Below are positions 473 through 10,585 of a stretch of DNA of 61,405 bases, in pieces. The DNA is from Acholeplasmataceae bacterium. Its GTDB lineage: Bacteria > Bacillota_I > Bacilli_A > Acholeplasmatales > Acholeplasmataceae. The position numbers and the translations under genes were made by a program. The notes beneath the pieces are model-generated. The model saw nothing but the letters and a program-made list of their open reading frames with translations. It had not been told where the DNA came from and did not search any database. The stretch is taken from assembly GCA_007692425.1 (NCBI GenBank), contig RECG01000007.1, forward strand, positions 1 to 61,405, written 5' to 3'. Position 1 is the first letter of the stretch; every line of letters begins with the position of its first letter.

Positions 473-525
473 ATGAAGTGGTTTCGAAATCTGTATCACA
501 CACCATGATCAATCAAGGATATGGA

Positions 526-1275
526 ATGAATACAATCTTTAATCGTTATGAACGCAAATACTTGATCAACAGCAAGCAGCAGGCCGAACTGGTGGCTTTT
601 TTAAAAGCGCACTTGACTTTTGATTCTTATTCATCAGAGGGGCAGCCCTATACCATTTACAACCTCTATTACGATACCAATGATTTCAGTGTCATCCGTT
701 CTTCAATCAACAAACCCATCTACAAAGAAAAACTACGTCTGCGCTGCTATCAAAAACCGACACAAGACGAGGATATCGTCTACCTGGAAATCAAAAAGAA
801 GCATGCCGGACGCATCAACAAGCGCCGGCTGGCACTCTCATACAAAGAGGCACGGCATTACATCAATGAAGGATCTTCGCCTGTCTTATCGACCTATAAC
901 GCGTCTCAGGTATTCAAGGAAATCGACTATTTCGTCAACATCCACAAAGCCAGGCCCAGTGTGTTGATCAAATACAACCGGCTCGCCCTACATTCACCAA
1001 ACGAAGCGCTCAGGGTGACCTTTGACAACATGATTGATTTCATCGGTGACATCCGATCACTTGATGACGAAGACAGTCGACAATTCCACGCCGTGCTGGC
1101 TGATACCGATTTGTCGATCATGGAAATCAAATCGGGCCAGAATTTCCCGTTATGGCTGGTCAGGAGACTGTCTGAACTCGACTTGTTCAGCCAACCCTTC
1201 TCCAAATATGGCAAAGCCTATCAACATTATCTTTCCGGAGGTGCCGCAGATGACCACATGCTTTATGACGCTTGA
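526..1275 (+). CDS. VTC-domain polyphosphate polymerase
   Basis: This 249-residue soluble protein matches the VTC domain that makes polyphosphate from ATP at the membrane. Visible family landmarks are an N-terminal ERKY motif, a basic pair in KLRLRCY, the strand YLEIKKK, a KYNR motif near the middle and a late EIKSG motif. These charged strands line the tunnel in characterised VTC polymerases. The start at 526 is chosen because AAGG lies at a normal distance before it and because the family match begins there; an in-frame start at 478 sits almost on the -10 box. The next gene overlaps by 26 bases and encodes a DUF4956 membrane protein, a known partner. The family call is firm, but polyphosphate synthesis here is inferred. 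Confidence 0.85.
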   Translation: MNTIFNRYERKYLINSKQQAELVAFLKAHLTFDSYSSEGQPYTIYNLYYDTNDFSVIRSSINKPIYKEKLRLRCYQKPTQDEDIVYLEIKKKHAGRINKRRLALSYKEARHYINEGSSPVLSTYNASQVFKEIDYFVNIHKARPSVLIKYNRLALHSPNEALRVTFDNMIDFIGDIRSLDDEDSRQFHAVLADTDLSIMEIKSGQNFPLWLVRRLSELDLFSQPFSKYGKAYQHYLSGGAADDHMLYDA

Positions 1276-1933
1276 CATGAATATCCTCACGCTTGAAAAC
1301 ATTCTTTTGATCCTGTTTGCCGCCACGATCCTCGGGTTTGTCTTGAGCAAGGTGTTCGTACTCACCCACCGCAGAAGCGTCTATGACCACCATTTCAGCA
1401 CGACCTTGATCATGTTACCGGTGGTGATTGCCGTCATCATCATACTCGTGCAAAACAACCTGGCCAGGGCATTCAGTCTGGCTGGTGTGTTCGCTTTGGT
1501 GCGTTTCCGTACCGCGATCGCCGATTCACGCGATATTGCCTACATCCTGTGCGGTGTCGGCATCGGCCTGGCGGCCGCGCTTGGTTATCTCGGATACGCG
1601 CTTGTCATCACGCTCTTCATCAGCGCCATTCTGATCTTGTTGCATCTCCTTCATGTCGATACCGACCGGACGAATCACGCGAAGCTTCGGATCATCATTC
1701 CCGAGGACTTGAATTACGCCGATGTCTTCGATGATATTTTCACCAAATACGTGCACAGTTATCAACTCCAGCGCGTCAAGACGACCGATTTCGGCACGCT
1801 CTTTGAACTGACTTATCTTGTCAAACTGAAAGGCAAAATCAACCAAAAAGAGTTCATCGATGAATTACGGGTCCGTAACGGTAACCTGAACATCACGCTG
1901 ACCTCTGATTATATCTCACTGACGAGCGAATAA
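1250..1933 (+). CDS. DUF4956 membrane protein
   Basis: This 227-residue protein has four hydrophobic segments in its first half (about residues 12-30, 45-65, 70-85 and 100-130), followed by a soluble domain of about 85 residues. It matches DUF4956, a family usually encoded next to VTC polyphosphate polymerases. The start at 1250 follows a strong GGAGGTG site by six bases, although in-frame ATGs at 1265 and 1277 are possible. It overlaps the upstream gene by 26 bases, so the two are probably translationally coupled. A likely job is to anchor the polymerase or help move its product. That role is inference, as the family has no firmly assigned activity. Confidence 0.8.
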   Translation: MTTCFMTLDMNILTLENILLILFAATILGFVLSKVFVLTHRRSVYDHHFSTTLIMLPVVIAVIIILVQNNLARAFSLAGVFALVRFRTAIADSRDIAYILCGVGIGLAAALGYLGYALVITLFISAILILLHLLHVDTDRTNHAKLRIIIPEDLNYADVFDDIFTKYVHSYQLQRVKTTDFGTLFELTYLVKLKGKINQKEFIDELRVRNGNLNITLTSDYISLTSE

Positions 1934-2228: not shown

Positions 2229-3557
2229 TCATTTCGCCAGCGATCCCATCGGGTCCCATGGTTTGAGCACGACGGGTTCGAGATCCCAGGCGTCAATCTG
2301 GTTTTTCGACAAGTGTTTGCGGTGAACGACCGCTTGGTAGACATAACGGTCGAACCAGGAGTCAGACGCCAGGTAATAGCCCTTGTTGCCGTGGGTGTCG
2401 CCCCATGAGTTCTCGATCTTCCAGCGGTTTGGTTTGTCGCCATCAAGGTTGACAGCGGTGATGACCATCGCATGGTTCATCGCACTTTGGGCGTAATCGA
2501 GTTCTTCGGCCTTGGTCATGGCCAGGCTCATCTCCATCATGCCTTCATAGTCGAAGGATTCATCATCCCAGACGCCTTCCTTGCGGTCGCCGTAGCGACC
2601 GACATCGGAACCGAACCAGACGACCTCGTTGTCTTTCAACTGCTTGAGGACAAGGTCTTTGAGTTCGGGCATCTCGAGATTGAGATATTTCACGGGACGT
2701 CCGCCCACGACATTGCCCAGATAAGCGACGGTGTAGGTTTTCATGAAAGGCTTGTCCGTGGTCGGCGCGTTGATGACGCTGACATAATCATCGAGCACGT
2801 CACCGACATGTTTTTGGTAAAACTGAAGCGGTGTCAGGTGCTTGTCGATGGCATATTTGTCGTTCTTATCGACGTATTCGAAGTCAAAGGTCTCGGGCGG
2901 CATGCCGAAATTGGTCACCAGGAAGGTATAGAGTTCTTCCAACGTCTTGTCTTTGAGGGCCGGGATGTCATTGGCTTTGCCTTGTTGAAAAAGCGTTCTG
3001 GCACCGGCGGCATACTGACGCAGCTTGACATTGATGATCTGGTTCATGAAGCGGGTCCCGCCGCTGCTGGCCGTCTCCGGCATCGCATCTTTGGGAACGA
3101 CGCCGTATTTCTTGACGACGTTGACAAACATGTCCCACTGGCCACCATCCTGGATGCCGGTCTTGAGCAGATGCTGCAAGGTGCGGTCATCCTGGTCGGC
3201 ATCAAGAAAGTCGTCCATCGCCTCGATGAAATAGTTGATCTTTTCAAACTTATCATAAAAAGCGGTATGATTTTGCGAGAGTTCGAAGTTGGCGAGGTCG
3301 TAGGTGTTGGCGACTTTCAGACGCATGACGTTGAGGGCGGCGAAAATCCAGCAACGGCCGCTTGCCTTCTGATGGGTCACAGGCAAGGTCTTGATCGCAT
3401 GCGAGAAGCGGAAACGGGTGTGTTGTTTCTGCTCCTGCTTGTCGAACAGGGTGGCGAGTTCGTTTTTGACGAGCACCCTTGACAATGCCTTTTGGACCGG
3501 TTTTTGTCCATAGTTCTGATTGAATGTGTCAATCCGTTTCAAGTCGATCGGTTTCAT
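2229..3557 (-). CDS. pepC: Aminopeptidase C (bleomycin hydrolase family, peptidase C1B)
   Basis: This 442-residue cytoplasmic thiol aminopeptidase has the three catalytic motifs of the family in order: Cys69 in KASGRCWIFAALN, the His in NHAMVITAV, and the Asn in WKIENSWGD. Its length fits the PepC/BLMH family (about 440-460). The start at 3557 follows an AAAGGATG site by six bases. It removes N-terminal residues from peptides for amino acid recycling. It lies 50 bases downstream of jetC with no terminator between, so it sits where jetD would be expected but is unrelated to it. Co-transcription with jetABC is possible and not proven. Confidence 0.95.
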   Translation of the reverse strand: MKPIDLKRIDTFNQNYGQKPVQKALSRVLVKNELATLFDKQEQKQHTRFRFSHAIKTLPVTHQKASGRCWIFAALNVMRLKVANTYDLANFELSQNHTAFYDKFEKINYFIEAMDDFLDADQDDRTLQHLLKTGIQDGGQWDMFVNVVKKYGVVPKDAMPETASSGGTRFMNQIINVKLRQYAAGARTLFQQGKANDIPALKDKTLEELYTFLVTNFGMPPETFDFEYVDKNDKYAIDKHLTPLQFYQKHVGDVLDDYVSVINAPTTDKPFMKTYTVAYLGNVVGGRPVKYLNLEMPELKDLVLKQLKDNEVVWFGSDVGRYGDRKEGVWDDESFDYEGMMEMSLAMTKAEELDYAQSAMNHAMVITAVNLDGDKPNRWKIENSWGDTHGNKGYYLASDSWFDRYVYQAVVHRKHLSKNQIDAWDLEPVVLKPWDPMGSLAK

Positions 3558-3607
3558 GTGAATCATCCTTTCCGGGTGGCATGTTTTGATCATTTGTTTT
3601 CAAGTCA

Positions 3608-6600
3608 TCAAGCCCGCAAGACACGTTCGTCCTTGAAGGCTTCGACAATCGCATAGTCGTTGTCCTTGACGACGACCAGGCTGGTGTTGACGAAATTGAT
3701 GATGTTGGTGACACGTTGGGGCGGGACCGCGATCAACAGCTGGATCGACAATGAGTTGTAGAACTTCATCATCGCGTCGATACGCGATTCGTCCATGTTG
3801 TTGAAGGCTTCGTCGAAGAGCACGATACAGCCGGAGTCGACCCGCTTGTTCTTGGTCAGAAGCTGCTGGAAGGACGCGGCGATGACGATATAGAACGGCA
3901 CCTGGGTCTCCCCGCCGCTCTTTTCCTTGGAGACTTTGGAGAAATACGATTTGTTGCCATTCAGGTTGGTGACCTCGATGTCATAGGACATGTAGTTGCG
4001 ATAATCGAGGAATTTGTAGGTCAGCAAATCGTATTCGGGGTCGTTGGAAGCGATTTTCTCAAACAGCTCCATCAGGATGGCTTCTTTCCGCTTGCTCAGT
4101 CCATCGGTGAACAAGGTGTGCTTGCCAATCGCGTCGTAGCCCATGATGATGTCATAGTACTGATGGTATTCAGGCTGGTCGCTGGCTTTGCAGAGCAGTT
4201 GGTAGGAGTCGGTACCGAACGTCTTGTCTTTGAGGGCGATGTTGAGTTCGGCGATTTGCTGCTGGGCGTTTTCAATCGACGCCCTGAGCTTGTTGACAAA
4301 CTCTTCCTTGAAACTGATTTCGGAATTGCGTCTGAGTTCGGTGGCCTCCTGCTCGTAGCGGACGAGGTTGTTGTTGCGGATTTGATTTGCTTCGGTTTCG
4401 TAGGCGACCAACTGGTCAAATTCGGGTGAGGCCCCGAAATGATAGGTCTGGTTGTAGAGTTTCATCATGTTGATGACATCCGACTGATCTTTGATGATCT
4501 GGTTGTTGAGACGGACGTTCGAATCGGCCAGGAATTTGGCGATCGCTTCAAAATCCTGCTTGAATTTTGTCTTCAGGGCATAATACTGGGTGCCCGCCAT
4601 GCTCAGTTTTTCCGGATGTTTCTGGGCAAGCTGTTTCTGGTTTTGCAGGAAGGCCTCGTTTTTGTCCTTGATATCCTCGATGGCATCAAGCACGCGTTGG
4701 CGCTCCTCCCGCTGGGTCGCGATTTCGCCGACAATCGTTTCGGCTTCACCGCGCATGGTCTTGCGGTTGTTGCGCTCGGTTTCGATCTTGCTTTCCAGTT
4801 TTTCAAGACTCTGGTCTTTTTCAAGCGCGTTGATCTGTTCTTCAATCTGCGTGTATTCACGTCTCGTCTGCCTGACCAGTTCCAGAAAACGGATCTGGTT
4901 CTGATGGACGATCTGTCCGCTCTTGTCCTGATTCAGCAATCTGGTGATGCGCTCTTGCTTGTCGGTCAGGTCATGCAGTTGATCCATCCTGTTTTCCAGC
5001 AGTTTGAGCGCTTTGATGTCCATCTCGATTTGAAGAGCGGTCGCCTCCTTGCCGATATAAGGCGTCTCATAGGCGCGCGGATTGATTTGGCGGGCCGTGT
5101 AATTGTTATACGTCATGCACGTCGGTGTGACGGCCCGGTTGAAGTTTTTCAAGTCATGGACATTGTCGACACAATAGGTCGTGTTCAACAACATGTTCAC
5201 ATAGTGACGGGCATGGGTGTGGTCGCTTTCGATTTTTTCCGCCAAGGTGCCGGGTGCCACCTGGGCATACGCTGACAGTTTGGTCGTGTTGACCAGACCG
5301 ACGCCGTAGATACGTTCCTGGAACTTGACTTTTTCATAGATGTCAAGGGCGTCGTTGAAATAACTGGGGTCGACGATGATGTCGAAACGCTGGGTGTTCA
5401 AATAACCTTCCAGGGCGTTGCGCCAATGCTCGTCCGCGACTTCGATCAATTCACAGAGCGGACGGACACGGATGTCTTTCTGGTAATGTTCAGACAAACC
5501 GTCGTTGAGGGCCTGGATCAATTTTTCAACATGGACAGGATAGGTCTTGACCTGACGTTTGAGCTGGTTCAGGCGTTGCGTGTTGTGACGGATGTTTTCC
5601 GACAGATTACGTTTTTCACTTTCGACCTTGTCACGTTCGGTATGATAAGCCTGCAAATAGGCCGCGACATCCGTGGCGACATGGCCGAGATGGACCGTCA
5701 GTTCACTGACGTTGAGCTGCTCCTGCTGGGTTTGATAATAATCGATGAAACCTTTAAAAGATGCCACCGGCAACAACTGGTTGAGTTCCTTGAGGGTGGC
5801 AAACTCCTTGTCAAGGGCTTGTCTGACCTGGGCGGTGATCTCCTTTTGTTGTTCGTATTCGCCGCCTTTCTTGACCAGTGCTTCCTGATAACCGGACAGC
5901 GTCCTGGACAAATCGTTGTCGCTCTTGGCGCGCTCAAGGGCGAAAATCGCCTGTTCGCTGGCCTCGAGCCGGCCGTCGACTTGTGCTTTTGATTCACGCA
6001 AATACTCAAGCCTTTGGTCGATCGTGACCAGTTTGGCTTCATGGTCCTTGATGAAACTTTCCCGCTTTTCAACCCAGTTGAGCTGGTCAATCAGGACATT
6101 GATGACATGCTGGTCCTGGTTCATGGTGATCGCTTCACCGGTTTGGACGATACCGTCGAGCTTGTCGAGTTTTTCCTTGTCGCGTTTGATCTGGGTTTCG
6201 ACTTTCTTCAGCTGGGCGACGTTGTTTTTAAGTGACTGGATGTCGATGGGATCGTCATCAAGCAGGAATTCAAACACAAAAGCCTGCAGGTCGATTGAAC
6301 GGAAAGCCAGTGCTTTCGGCAGGATTTTCGCATACTTGGAAGCATCCATGCCGAAAAAGCGGGCGAGGGCGTCACGGTATTTCTTTTGCGTTTCAAAAGG
6401 CACGAACTCGATGTCGATTGATTTGAGATATTGTTTCATACTCTTGTAATCACGCGGATATTTCTTCTCAAGGAACAACCCGTCGTGGATGGACGTGTTC
6501 TCCAAAATATAGAAACGTTCCTTGAGAGAGCCGTTCTTGGGCAGGTCGAGGATGCAACCGATGATGTTGAACTGTTTGCTTTGCTCATCAAAAAACTCTA

Positions 6601-6883
6601 GCGCCAGATGCGTAATCACGTCGTTGTTGCGGATGTATTCCTTGTTTTCCGCACCGATGCGGCCCCTGACATAACCTTCGAGCGTCCGCTTGGCATCATC
6701 GGTGGCGGCGACATTGAATTTGGCCCCGCTCCGGCCGCCGACCAGCAAATACTGCATGGCATCAAGCAAGGTCGACTTGCCGGACCCGTTTTCACCGGAG
6801 ATGAGGGCGTTGTCCTTGATATCGATCGTCTGGTTGGTGAACAGATGCCAGTTGACCAGCTTAATCTTCGTCAGTTTCTTCAT
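3608..6883 (-). CDS. jetC: SMC-like ATPase, Wadjet JetC / MksB-type
   Basis: This 1091-residue protein has the split ABC-ATPase layout of SMC proteins. Walker A is GENGSGKST at residues 30-38. Long charged coiled-coil stretches flank a central non-coil hinge region around residues 550-640. Near the C-terminus are a signature SGGETQVPF and a Walker B ending in LFDEAFNNMD. Together with the JetA and JetB neighbours this places it in the Wadjet JetC / MksB family, whose complexes extrude DNA loops. The start at 6883 (MKKLTKIKL) gives a 23-base overlap with jetB and lies 11 bases from GGAGG; longer in-frame versions run into jetB. Downstream there is pepC, not jetD. Confidence 0.9.
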   Translation of the reverse strand: MKKLTKIKLVNWHLFTNQTIDIKDNALISGENGSGKSTLLDAMQYLLVGGRSGAKFNVAATDDAKRTLEGYVRGRIGAENKEYIRNNDVITHLALEFFDEQSKQFNIIGCILDLPKNGSLKERFYILENTSIHDGLFLEKKYPRDYKSMKQYLKSIDIEFVPFETQKKYRDALARFFGMDASKYAKILPKALAFRSIDLQAFVFEFLLDDDPIDIQSLKNNVAQLKKVETQIKRDKEKLDKLDGIVQTGEAITMNQDQHVINVLIDQLNWVEKRESFIKDHEAKLVTIDQRLEYLRESKAQVDGRLEASEQAIFALERAKSDNDLSRTLSGYQEALVKKGGEYEQQKEITAQVRQALDKEFATLKELNQLLPVASFKGFIDYYQTQQEQLNVSELTVHLGHVATDVAAYLQAYHTERDKVESEKRNLSENIRHNTQRLNQLKRQVKTYPVHVEKLIQALNDGLSEHYQKDIRVRPLCELIEVADEHWRNALEGYLNTQRFDIIVDPSYFNDALDIYEKVKFQERIYGVGLVNTTKLSAYAQVAPGTLAEKIESDHTHARHYVNMLLNTTYCVDNVHDLKNFNRAVTPTCMTYNNYTARQINPRAYETPYIGKEATALQIEMDIKALKLLENRMDQLHDLTDKQERITRLLNQDKSGQIVHQNQIRFLELVRQTRREYTQIEEQINALEKDQSLEKLESKIETERNNRKTMRGEAETIVGEIATQREERQRVLDAIEDIKDKNEAFLQNQKQLAQKHPEKLSMAGTQYYALKTKFKQDFEAIAKFLADSNVRLNNQIIKDQSDVINMMKLYNQTYHFGASPEFDQLVAYETEANQIRNNNLVRYEQEATELRRNSEISFKEEFVNKLRASIENAQQQIAELNIALKDKTFGTDSYQLLCKASDQPEYHQYYDIIMGYDAIGKHTLFTDGLSKRKEAILMELFEKIASNDPEYDLLTYKFLDYRNYMSYDIEVTNLNGNKSYFSKVSKEKSGGETQVPFYIVIAASFQQLLTKNKRVDSGCIVLFDEAFNNMDESRIDAMMKFYNSLSIQLLIAVPPQRVTNIINFVNTSLVVVKDNDYAIVEAFKDERVLRA

Positions 6884-7499
6884 CGTCGTCACTGCCTCCT
6901 TCCATGTAACCCTCCAGTTTCTGGACCACTTCCTTGATGCTGTCCAGATTGGTGACATAGAGGATCGTCGGATAGATCTTGATGCGGGCATCATCATGCA
7001 GCCCGCGGTCGATGTAATCAATGATGTTGTAGTTCCGTAAAAAAACCAGTGCCGGTTTGAGCCGGTCCTTGGTGATACGTTTGTTGTCAAGGTAGCCGAT
7101 ACGCATCAGTTCAGCGTGGATCTCATGCAGGTAGATTTCGACATCCTCGTCCAAGGTGATGAGATCTTTTTTGCGTTGATAAAGGATCCGGATGACCAAA
7201 AGCATGACGCTTTCGGTCTTGCGCAGACGCATGTGATTGAACATGCTTTCATTCTGGATATAGACCACTTCGTCCTCACGTCGGACATTCAAGACAAAGT
7301 CGGTGAGGGCGAAAAAAGGTTCAAACACTTCCTTGTATGCCAGGATGAAACGGTAGTCATTGACATCACCAGGCTTGCGTTTGGTCAGAAAATTCACTTG
7401 GAAGAGCTTGTTCGTGATGCGTGAAAATTGAGTCTTTTCGCCTTCCTTGAGCGAAAGATAGGCTTCATGAAATTGATTGGCGGCCTGCGTCTTGTTCAT
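6861..7499 (-). CDS. jetB: Wadjet JetB / MksE-like (DUF4194) subunit
   Basis: This 212-residue protein resembles the JetB/MksE (DUF4194) family, winged-helix proteins that bind the kleisin of bacterial condensin-like complexes. The body (residues 20-190) is predicted mostly helical, with a conserved-looking stretch RLRKTESVMLLVIRILY typical of the family. The last 15 residues are almost all Asp, Glu, Gly or Ser. Its ATG overlaps the jetA stop codon by four bases (ATGA), and jetC begins inside its 3' end, so the three genes are tightly coupled. The role as an accessory subunit is inferred from family and context. Confidence 0.85.
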   Translation of the reverse strand: MNKTQAANQFHEAYLSLKEGEKTQFSRITNKLFQVNFLTKRKPGDVNDYRFILAYKEVFEPFFALTDFVLNVRREDEVVYIQNESMFNHMRLRKTESVMLLVIRILYQRKKDLITLDEDVEIYLHEIHAELMRIGYLDNKRITKDRLKPALVFLRNYNIIDYIDRGLHDDARIKIYPTILYVTNLDSIKEVVQKLEGYMEGGSDDDEETDED

Positions 7500-8884
7500 G
7501 CGACGACTCCTTTGATCAGAAAGTTTTGAAAGGTGATGAAATTATTGTTGCACTCGCGGCCTGTCAATTCAACATCATAGTGCATGCCGATAGACTTCGA
7601 GTAAAGGAAAATCAAAATGAGCTTGATGTAGTCTTCTTGCGTCTCCAAGGGAATCTCGGCCGCTTCAATATGGTTGCGGTCCCTCAGCAGCAGACGGACA
7701 TACTGGTCGATTTCTTTCTTGGTGTAGATGCTGTTTTTCAAAAGCGCCCTGACCTTTTCCTGTTTCAAGGTGTCGCTGATGAAATCATCGTCATAGACAA
7801 GTTCCTCAGGCACCGTCTCAATGCGGGCGCGTCGTTGGTTATAAAGTGATTGGGTATCAAGATTACGGGCATTGAAGAGATTGAAGAATGACGCGTAATC
7901 CATGTTTTTTTGGCTGAGAACGATTTTAAAGAGCCGGTTGAAGATGCCTTCAATGTCATCGGAACGATTCGTGAAAAACAAAATCTTGGCCGCTGCGGCA
8001 CTGATGTACTGTTCGTTTTTGCGGTCAATCGCCAAGACCAGGTGCTCGAGAGCGGTAAAACTGTCGGCGATGAAACGGAGCCTGTCTTCAACGTAATGAA
8101 AGGCTTCGTTATAGTCTTCCATCCGCTTGAGTTTAAGGACGCTTTCAGCCAGCCTTTCCATGGTCGGCTCGTTGTTTTGGATGGTTGAAATCGATTCAAG
8201 GATGACACGCTTGTAGCGGGGCAGACTGTCGGTTGTCTTGAGGTTGTAATAGGCCGAATCAAAAAAATTCTGCTTGTATTCAATCAGCAGTTTTTCCAAC
8301 AGTTTCTGCAGGTCGTGTTTCGATTGTTTACGGGTAATGTCATAATAATAACGGTAGATGTTGGCCTTGAGTGCTTTGAGTTTACGGATGATGTCATGGG
8401 TCTTTTGATAGGCCTGCTCCAAGACACCGATGCCTTCATCGAGTGAAAACGACGACAAAAGCGAGTAAACCGCGAAAATTTCGCCGGTATACTCGTTTTG
8501 GGTGAAATTGGCGACACTTTCCAGCACATCGATGATCTGGATGGTGTAATCGAAAAGATTAAGCGATGTCTTATAGTCGCCGAGTTCTTCTTCACCCAGC
8601 CAACCGTTCTTCTTGAGCACGTTGATGACATGCAAGGCTTTTTGACGGCTGGTGCGTGCCGGTTCGACCTGATCTTCATCGTCATCGACAAGCTCGGTGC
8701 CTGGCTGGTCGTCGAAGTAATCGGTCAGTCTTTGAATGATGTATTCCCTATCCCCTTGAAAAGCGTCTTCGATGGTGTCGATCGCATGATAGATAATGAA
8801 GATGCAATCAACATACGTTTTCCGGTTGGGCGATGCCAGCACACTGAAGAAACTGCTGTGAATGGTCTCAAAGAGATGTGCCAT
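7496..8884 (-). CDS. jetA: Wadjet JetA / MksF-like kleisin subunit
   Basis: This 462-residue protein matches the JetA family of the Firmicutes-type Wadjet (DUF5716), the kleisin-like subunit that bridges the JetC heads. It begins MAHLFETIHSSFFSVLASPNR, a start typical of the family, and has an acidic linker with EDQVEPARTSRQ near residue 65. The remainder is helical with no enzymatic motif. The start follows GGAGG by five bases. It is the first gene of jetA-jetB-jetC and has its own extended -10 promoter just upstream. Whether the complex acts against plasmids or in chromosome organisation cannot be read from this gene. Confidence 0.85.
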   Translation of the reverse strand: MAHLFETIHSSFFSVLASPNRKTYVDCIFIIYHAIDTIEDAFQGDREYIIQRLTDYFDDQPGTELVDDDEDQVEPARTSRQKALHVINVLKKNGWLGEEELGDYKTSLNLFDYTIQIIDVLESVANFTQNEYTGEIFAVYSLLSSFSLDEGIGVLEQAYQKTHDIIRKLKALKANIYRYYYDITRKQSKHDLQKLLEKLLIEYKQNFFDSAYYNLKTTDSLPRYKRVILESISTIQNNEPTMERLAESVLKLKRMEDYNEAFHYVEDRLRFIADSFTALEHLVLAIDRKNEQYISAAAAKILFFTNRSDDIEGIFNRLFKIVLSQKNMDYASFFNLFNARNLDTQSLYNQRRARIETVPEELVYDDDFISDTLKQEKVRALLKNSIYTKKEIDQYVRLLLRDRNHIEAAEIPLETQEDYIKLILIFLYSKSIGMHYDVELTGRECNNNFITFQNFLIKGVVA

Positions 8885-8935
8885 GCGCGCCTCCTTTATT
8901 TTTTTTCAAAAATAAAAAATATGAATATCAAGTAC

Positions 8936-8967
8936 ATTGTACCATGATTTAGACATATTTTATATGT
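8936..8967 (-). promoter_or_regulatory. jetA promoter with overlapping palindrome
   Basis: On the minus strand an extended -10 box TGG-TACAAT lies at 8936-8941. The -35 position is poor (TATAAA). A perfect 6-3-6 inverted repeat ACATAT-TTT-ATATGT (8953-8967) covers that -35 position and could be an operator. It has no T run on the minus strand, so it is not the terminator of the helicase gene. Confidence 0.45.
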
Positions 8968-8971
8968 TTTT

Positions 8972-10585
8972 TCACGATTTGGTTTTCAGGATTTGTATCT
9001 TGATTTGACGACCGTTGACGAGGCGTGACTGCAAGCTTTCAAGACGTTTGACAGCAGCCGGATGGATTTGAAAACGGGTCATGCTTTTCTCCATCTCGAT
9101 ATCGCCGATGTTGCGTGGATAGAGATCGGCATGTTTCTTGAAATAATCCAAGAGGGTCACCGGTCTGAAACCATCGCTTTTGCCTAAGTTGATGGTGGCC
9201 AGACGATAATGAGTGGCCGGTTTTCGACGATTCGACGTGTCGCTCCGTTCTGTTTTCAAGGCGGGTTTGCGGATGGGCGGACCGATTGGCTCATAGTCGG
9301 TGGAGACCTTGATGGTCGCATTCAACAAGCCGGTCATGACCGCCTCGTCGGAAAAGCCATCCTGACGGAGTTTGGTGATGATGTCTGACACGTCAGCGGT
9401 CTGGTTTTCAATCATGCGCTTGATGCTTTCATAGGCGCGGTCCCGCATGCGGGCATTGATGGCGGTTTCATCGGGAATCGACAGTTCAACCATGCGTGTC
9501 TTGATGAAGCGTTCGATCATGTTCAGCTTGGTACGCAGACTGGGATAGACCAATGAGATGGAGACCCCGGATTTGCCGGCTCTGCCGGTCCGGCCGATGC
9601 GGTGGACATAGACTTCGTCTTCGAAAGGCATTTCATAATTGATGACCATGTCGACATCCTTGATGTCCAGACCACGGGCCGCGACATCAGTGGCGATCAA
9701 ATAGTTCATTTTTTTACTTCTGAACCGGTTCATGACCTGATCACGCTGGCTTTGTTTGAGATCACCGTGCAAAGCTTCCGCCTCGCGGTTGTGTTTTTGC
9801 AAGAAAGCGGACAAGTCGTCGACATCCTTCTTGGTGTTGGCGAAAATGATGGCCGAAGGTGGTGCATAATAATCGAGCAGACGCAACAAGAGCTGGTCAC
9901 GATCCGCTTTCCTGACCATGACATAATACTGTTCGGTCAAGGAAACGGTCATGGTCGGCGTGTCGATTTTGATGATGACCGGTTGACGTTGATAACGTTC
10001 GGCCACTTTTTTGATAAAGGGCGGAATGGTCGCGGAAAACAAGGCGGTCTGACGGCTGGAAGGCGTGTCGCGCAACATGCGCTCGAGGTCTTCCTGAAAC
10101 CCCATTTTAAGCATTTCATCAGCTTCATCCAAGACCAGGACACGCAATTGGCTGAAATCAATCGTTTTGCGTTCAAGATGGTCGATGGCACGTCCGGGGG
10201 TGGCGACCACGATCTGGGGATGGGCGGCCAACGCCTTGAATTGCTTGGTGTAGGATTCGCCGCCATAAACCGATGTCACACGGATGGCGCGGTTGAATTT
10301 GACAAGCTTTAAAAACTCCTTGTAGACTTGGAGTGTCAGTTCCCTGGTGGGACAGATGACCAACGCCTGGACATCTTCGCAGGCGGGATCGATCTTTTCC
10401 AAAATCGGAATGGCGAAGGCAAACGTCTTGCCGGTGCCGGTCTGAGCCTGGCCGATCAGGTCTTTGCCTGCAAGCATGACCGGAATGGCTTCATGCTGGA
10501 TGGCGGTGGTTTCGACCAGTCCGAGGGCTTCGATCGCCTGCTTGGTCTCGTCGCGAATGGGTAATGCGTCAAATAATAGATTCAC
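8972..10585 (-). CDS. DEAD-box RNA helicase (CshA/DeaD type)
   Basis: This 537-residue ATP-dependent RNA helicase shows the full motif set: Q motif near residue 30, motif I AQTGTGKT (47-54), PTREL, DEAD, SAT, and HRIGRTGRAGKSG. A C-terminal extension of about 170 residues ends in a basic segment that resembles the RNA-binding (DbpA/RRM-like) tail of CsdA/CshA enzymes. Such helicases unwind mRNA and rRNA structures in cold adaptation, ribosome assembly and RNA decay. RNase J is also encoded in this window. An extended -10 box TGG-TATAGT lies about 35 bases upstream. Which helicase paralogue this is cannot be settled from sequence alone. Confidence 0.93.
   Translation of the reverse strand: MNLLFDALPIRDETKQAIEALGLVETTAIQHEAIPVMLAGKDLIGQAQTGTGKTFAFAIPILEKIDPACEDVQALVICPTRELTLQVYKEFLKLVKFNRAIRVTSVYGGESYTKQFKALAAHPQIVVATPGRAIDHLERKTIDFSQLRVLVLDEADEMLKMGFQEDLERMLRDTPSSRQTALFSATIPPFIKKVAERYQRQPVIIKIDTPTMTVSLTEQYYVMVRKADRDQLLLRLLDYYAPPSAIIFANTKKDVDDLSAFLQKHNREAEALHGDLKQSQRDQVMNRFRSKKMNYLIATDVAARGLDIKDVDMVINYEMPFEDEVYVHRIGRTGRAGKSGVSISLVYPSLRTKLNMIERFIKTRMVELSIPDETAINARMRDRAYESIKRMIENQTADVSDIITKLRQDGFSDEAVMTGLLNATIKVSTDYEPIGPPIRKPALKTERSDTSNRRKPATHYRLATINLGKSDGFRPVTLLDYFKKHADLYPRNIGDIEMEKSMTRFQIHPAAVKRLESLQSRLVNGRQIKIQILKTKS

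Follow-up and report, generated by a model that had tools for sequence, protein, structure and literature searches.

A type I Wadjet core without its JetD nuclease as the probable sole condensin of an Acholeplasmataceae bacterium and its relatives

Introduction

The JetABC core of Wadjet defence systems confers DNA-circle sensing, and the JetD nuclease cuts (PMC10586767). An operon from an Acholeplasmataceae bacterium encodes such a core with a peptidase gene in the position of jetD, which raises the question of what the core does without its nuclease. A Wadjet-like defence origin of the MukBEF and MksBEF complexes is only a matter of speculation in reviews (PMC10586767), and a genome review has described the partitioning repertoire of phytoplasmas and acholeplasmas as "sparse" (PMC3322544). 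No earlier report of Wadjet in Acholeplasma, or of SMC or condensin in phytoplasmas, was found in a literature search outside which most subscription journals and preprints lay. The sequence comparisons presented here suggest that, quite probably, JetABC descends from a type I Wadjet system whose nuclease is permanently gone and acts as the only SMC-kleisin condensin, in place of SMC-ScpAB.

The jetABC operon and its subunits

The operon lies in a window of 61,405 nucleotides (the whole stretch of DNA analysed), and its features are listed in Table 1. The first-pass annotation had described three overlapping genes for the kleisin, accessory and SMC-like subunits of Wadjet, followed by pepC and preceded by a DEAD-box helicase gene; Pfam and PADLOC type I matches bear out the subunits, and Pfam matches both neighbours. 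The overlaps measure 4 bp (jetA/jetB) and 23 bp (jetB/jetC), the latter because the conserved start of jetC is at 6883 (MKKLTKIKLVNW, 1091 aa); the mechanical open reading frame starts at 7090. Good ribosome sites can be read in the operon. The stop codon of jetC is 14 bp from the start of the peptidase gene, a neighbour whose product is probably no component of the complex. The rest of the window is ordinary chromosome, with genes for SecA, IF-2, EF-G, RNase J, UvrC and NFACT, and no defence island was seen among the window genes scanned. Window positions 478-1933 encode a VTC-domain protein (PF09359) and, after it, a membrane protein, the two genes forming a pair conserved in related genera, and three minus-strand tRNA genes (163-329 and 2087-2160) flank this segment.

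Table 1. Features of the jetABC locus (window coordinates)
Feature	Position	Strand	Description
pepC-type peptidase	2229..3593	minus	Peptidase_C1_2, 558 bits; occupies the jetD position
jetC	3608-6883	minus	SMC-like ATPase, 1091 aa
jetB	6861-7499	minus	KITE subunit, 212 aa
jetA	7496-8884	minus	Kleisin subunit, 462 aa
Helicase-jetA gap, 87 bp	8885..8971	minus	Probable operon start (putative); carries AAAGGAGG ribosome site, read directly from the sequence
DEAD-box RNA helicase	8972..10585	minus	Pfam DEAD, Helicase_C and DbpA; upstream neighbour of jetA

JetA matches the Pfam family "Wadjet protein JetA" (PF18982) with 279.5 bits (cut-off 26.2), JetB matches DUF4194 above cut-off (79.5 bits), and JetC matches SbcC_Walker_B and AAA_29 above cut-off. 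The PADLOC type I models give 329 bits for JetA1, 216 bits for JetB1 and 1071 bits for JetC1 (residues 1-1088), the three type I motor subunits being encoded by overlapping genes in a single operon. A JetC profile matches the solved JetC structure 8as8 over 4-1084 (E 7e-41) and also the solved JetC 8dk2; homology to solved JetC runs from one end of the protein to the other, and the lack of SMC architecture against which the first-pass annotation had cautioned was not encountered. The JetC ATPase motifs are Walker A (G30 and GKST 35-38), the signature SGGE (989-992) and Walker B (DE 1024-1025), and all three are invariant among 20 diverse sequences. Comparison of the JetA sequence with PDB sequences yielded nothing meaningful, and fold prediction was therefore used. 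The AlphaFold2 model of JetA, of moderate confidence (pLDDT 75, pTM 0.45), has winged-helix ends and a helical middle, and its best PDB matches are MukF (E 2.9e-5) and JetA 8q72 (E 1.9e-4). The JetB model (pLDDT 84) best matches MukE and JetB 8dk1 (TM by target 0.75).

Absence of JetD

A JetD HMM made from 67 JetD proteins found no match in any reading frame of the window, in agreement with the first-pass annotation, and there was no PF09983 match in the whole assembly (1.45 Mb, 97.8% complete), leaving no co-conserved JetD elsewhere in the bacterium's own genome. Nor did JetD adjoin the core JetABC in relatives, among 161 loci compared. The sensitivity of the HMM appears adequate, because it detects a JetD gene immediately after JetC in the majority of the loci retrieved from Bacillota, Spirochaetota and Anaerolineae genomes. 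JetD_C was present in only eight of the 160 Acholeplasmatales genomes surveyed; five of these (G023, G096, G109, G111 and G121) have two jetA copies, with JetD directly behind the second JetC, and in G151 the JetD-bearing operon is the sole copy. The JetD of such operons in this order scores as PADLOC JetD1.

Two further loci illustrate other arrangements. In G133, a JetD of 421 aa (L065:947-2212) has no adjoining JetABC, the core JetABC being found elsewhere in the genome. In G088, a second jet locus (L199:5149-5793) has a jetC shortened to about 215 aa and represents a decaying extra Wadjet copy.

Distribution of JetABC and SMC-ScpAB

The order survey covered 160 Acholeplasmatales genomes and 14 control genomes; relatives named among the matches include Acholeplasmataceae, Acholeplasma sp., Haploplasma modicum, Candidatus Phytoplasma pruni and Candidatus Phytoplasma luffae, and they assign the window's genome to this order. 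JetA was found in 127/160 and JetC in 132/160 Acholeplasmatales genomes, with one or the other in 133/160. A search for canonical SMC-ScpAB, proposed with the first-pass annotation, detected none of the three subunits above cut-off in the order (SMC TIGR02168, ScpA and ScpB each 0/160); in the control genomes SMC was above cut-off in 10/14, ScpA in 9/14 and ScpB in 9/14. Counted as presence of JetA or JetC, the core was retained by 53 of 54 genomes of the window's family (f1) outside genera g12 and g14, by all 55 of its sister family (f2), by 3/3 in f3 and by the one genome of f5. At least one jet gene was found in 19 of the 29 genomes of the phytoplasma-like g12, in none of five in g14, and in two of 13 in G146-G158, both with JetD. 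The core JetABC is near-universal and single-copy in small genomes.

Neither SMC-ScpAB nor JetABC was found in ten phytoplasmas (G047, G048, G050, G056, G064, G065, G066, G070, G072 and G073), in genus g14 (G081-G085) and in most of G146-G158, and several genomes without both complexes are complete chromosomes. Condensin would therefore be dispensable in some relatives, and these organisms may be living without any condensin. Another SMC-like protein was considered for the relatives without JetABC; the sole matches above cut-off (G148 and G164) are encoded behind an SbcD-like gene and resemble SbcC.

The window's genome has retained a Soj-ParB pair despite the absence of SMC-ScpAB; ParB adjoins the Soj and gid genes (G000:C9:561-2151, L226). 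Several genomes with JetABC (G014, G086, G020 and G094) gave no ParB match, so dependence of JetABC on ParB was rejected and its loading is probably ParB-independent. A parS site near jetABC was likewise rejected, given one match with three mismatches against a chance expectation of 0.5.

Gene order in relatives

Gene order was compared at 40 loci and then at 161 loci, a comparison also proposed with the first-pass annotation, and JetD-less jetABC was found across relatives with a varying downstream gene. The gene after jetC differs among genera of the window's family, in which peptidase, PTS-type enzyme and helicase genes occupy this place. In the sister family, jetABC lies directly upstream of sepF (PF04472 above cut-off), often followed by an IleRS-type tRNA synthetase gene. 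A replacement effector adjoining jetC was sought and rejected: what follows jetC differs from lineage to lineage, so that no effector travels with jetABC, and the small gene found consistently in the sister family encodes SepF.

These comparisons bear on the possibility that JetABC continues to sense plasmids or phages in defence, in partnership with an effector nuclease that is of another kind, is encoded elsewhere or has escaped recognition. In favour of such a sensor, the models that best fit all three subunits are those of Wadjet type I, and the core has no detectable signature of a changed function. A JetD-docking motif has been reported at the N-terminus of JetB (PMC10586767); it was considered as a signature and rejected, as there was no difference, short N-termini being common among JetD-bearing systems too. 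No columns conserved in JetD-bearing JetA, JetB or JetC were lost in all three JetD-less clades described below, and no sequence signature separating JetD-less from JetD-bearing JetABC was detected. However, JetD is absent genome-wide, the gene after jetC varies between peptidase, PTS-type enzyme, helicase and sepF, small genomes retain the core almost universally and in single copy where defence systems are patchy, and some genomes with the core have a complete JetABCD operon in addition. A role as a defence sensor therefore seems unlikely.

The phytoplasmas have a different arrangement, all complete chromosomes examined having jetA and jetBC far apart. At loci L050-L053, L066-L069 and L078-L079 the distance is at least 100 kilobases, and a HAD-family hydrolase gene lies ahead of phytoplasma jetB. 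Both jetA and jetBC were kept in 17 of the 29 phytoplasma-like genomes, neither in ten and only one in two, both of the latter being incomplete assemblies; this co-retention of unlinked subunits gives a Fisher p of 6e-6, in a test that ignores species kinship.

Coexistence and exclusion in a class-wide sample

In a class-wide sample of 326 evenly drawn genomes, in which ScpA was searched throughout and SMC itself only within the order, JetA was present in 90, ScpA in 148, both in ten and neither in 98, odds-ratio tests on these counts ignoring shared ancestry. Families f12 and f17 alone combine JetA with ScpA, and six of these ten genomes have strong JetD (at least 60 bits). JetA without ScpA was found in Acholeplasmatales and in families f7, f11, f21, f23 and f24, a total of 80 genomes, with strong JetD in five. 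The 98 genomes without both ScpA and JetA weaken a simple story of replacement. In f12, JetD-less JetABC is found alongside ScpA (L183, L187, L188 and L190), and loss of JetD thus does not require loss of SMC; this combination could be an intermediate stage. Two genomes of this family (G199 and G216) have JetD-less JetABC beside complete JetABCD.

The coexistence with ScpA in f12, and the relatives that have neither JetABC nor SMC, might be taken to mean that JetABC has a narrower role in DNA maintenance (repair, replication restart, or non-cutting sequestration of plasmids or phages) and is not the main condensin. Such a restriction is very unlikely, given that both the mutual exclusion of JetABC and SMC-ScpAB in most JetABC lineages and the sepF linkage in the sister family point to chromosome and division housekeeping.

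Phylogeny and selection

Unrooted trees of JetC were built with FastTree (146 proteins) and IQ-TREE (LG+C20, 63 proteins). Both recover three large JetD-less clades, one formed by f1, another by f2, f3, f5, f23 and f24, and the third by f11 and f21, and JetD-bearing lineages separate the three from one another. The JetD-less clades c1 (26 rows), c2 (24) and c3 (12) each have 100% support, and the starred branches of the 63-row tree force at least four changes. Forcing c1 and c2 into one clade was 114 log-likelihood units worse and was rejected (p-AU 4e-5) in an AU test that used 21 rows, the simpler LG+G4 model and groups named after inspection of the tree. Since JetD-bearing systems span several phyla, change would most naturally have run towards loss of JetD; unrooted trees cannot prove this direction. 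It seems reasonably likely that an immune machine became the sole condensin on at least three separate occasions, in Acholeplasmatales and neighbouring lineages, through loss of the nuclease in hosts without SMC-ScpAB.

JetABC is under purifying selection. Overall dN/dS is 0.08-0.18: two closely related phytoplasmas give 0.16-0.18 for JetC and JetA, and more distant pairs, in which dS is near saturation, give about 0.1. No internal stops were found in the jet genes compared. That JetABC is a functionless, decaying Wadjet remnant, as the missing jetD and the complete loss of jet genes in some phytoplasmas and genus g14 might suggest, is hardly credible in the face of this selection, the ATPase motifs invariant across the family, the deep conservation in the window's family and its sister family, and the co-retention of unlinked subunits in phytoplasmas.

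Proposed function

The first-pass annotation had listed a housekeeping condensin among its options, and this option is the one favoured by the order-wide absence of SMC-ScpAB, the near-universal JetD-less JetABC, purifying selection and the sepF linkage. The evidence for a role in chromosome organisation (SMC-ScpAB absence, sepF linkage and conservation) is only indirect; loop extrusion, action on the chromosome and the sequence of events are inferred. In the proposed mechanism, JetA and JetB would bridge JetC dimers, and the assembly would extrude or tether loops of chromosomal DNA in a cycle powered by ATP. The loops would aid the compaction and segregation of sister chromosomes, and JetABC would in this way fill the place of the missing SMC-ScpAB. 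Without JetD, completion of a loop on a small circle entails no cutting, and the complex could thus act safely on all DNA; plasmid restriction or small-circle cutting by JetABC is unlikely.

JetABC is thus a candidate chromosome organiser in phytoplasmas and acholeplasmas, which, if this proves true, gain a condensin. A single order allows side-by-side comparison of JetABC without nuclease as a fixed core and JetABCD as an occasional extra copy, and repeated conversion, if true, would provide a replicated natural experiment for the route from Wadjet to MukBEF and MksBEF. Defence-finding software may call "Wadjet" components in these genomes where plasmid defence is absent.

Comparison with known systems

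The scores on the JetA1, JetB1 and JetC1 models, the gene order and the overlaps are shared with Wadjet type I, but JetD is missing here from both operon and genome. Wadjet type I is also patchy in its distribution, whereas the JetABC described here is near-universal and single-copy in hosts without SMC-ScpAB. With SMC-ScpAB it shares the expected role in chromosome organisation, but no subunit of that complex was above cut-off in the 160 genomes, and JetC itself scores 23.4 bits on the SMC_prok_B model against a cut-off of 567. MksBEF without MksG, to which the first-pass annotation had likened the operon, is in Pseudomonas aeruginosa likewise an SMC-kleisin-KITE complex without a nuclease, and JetABC has the same composition, an SMC ATPase with an intact head, a kleisin and a KITE subunit. 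P. aeruginosa MksBEF acts on chromosomes, and its descent from JetABCD has been proposed (PMC10586767, PMC7485682). It works beside SMC-ScpAB, whereas JetABC is the only such complex here and belongs to a different branch, with a type I JetC and no MksB assignment made. In enterobacteria, Smc-ScpAB has been replaced by MukBEF (PMC10586767). The predicted models of JetA and JetB resemble MukF and MukE, but the MukB model, with its cut-off of 699, gives JetC only 36.5 bits, and MukBEF is found in another phylum. JetABC is probably analogous to MksBEF and MukBEF, but separately derived.
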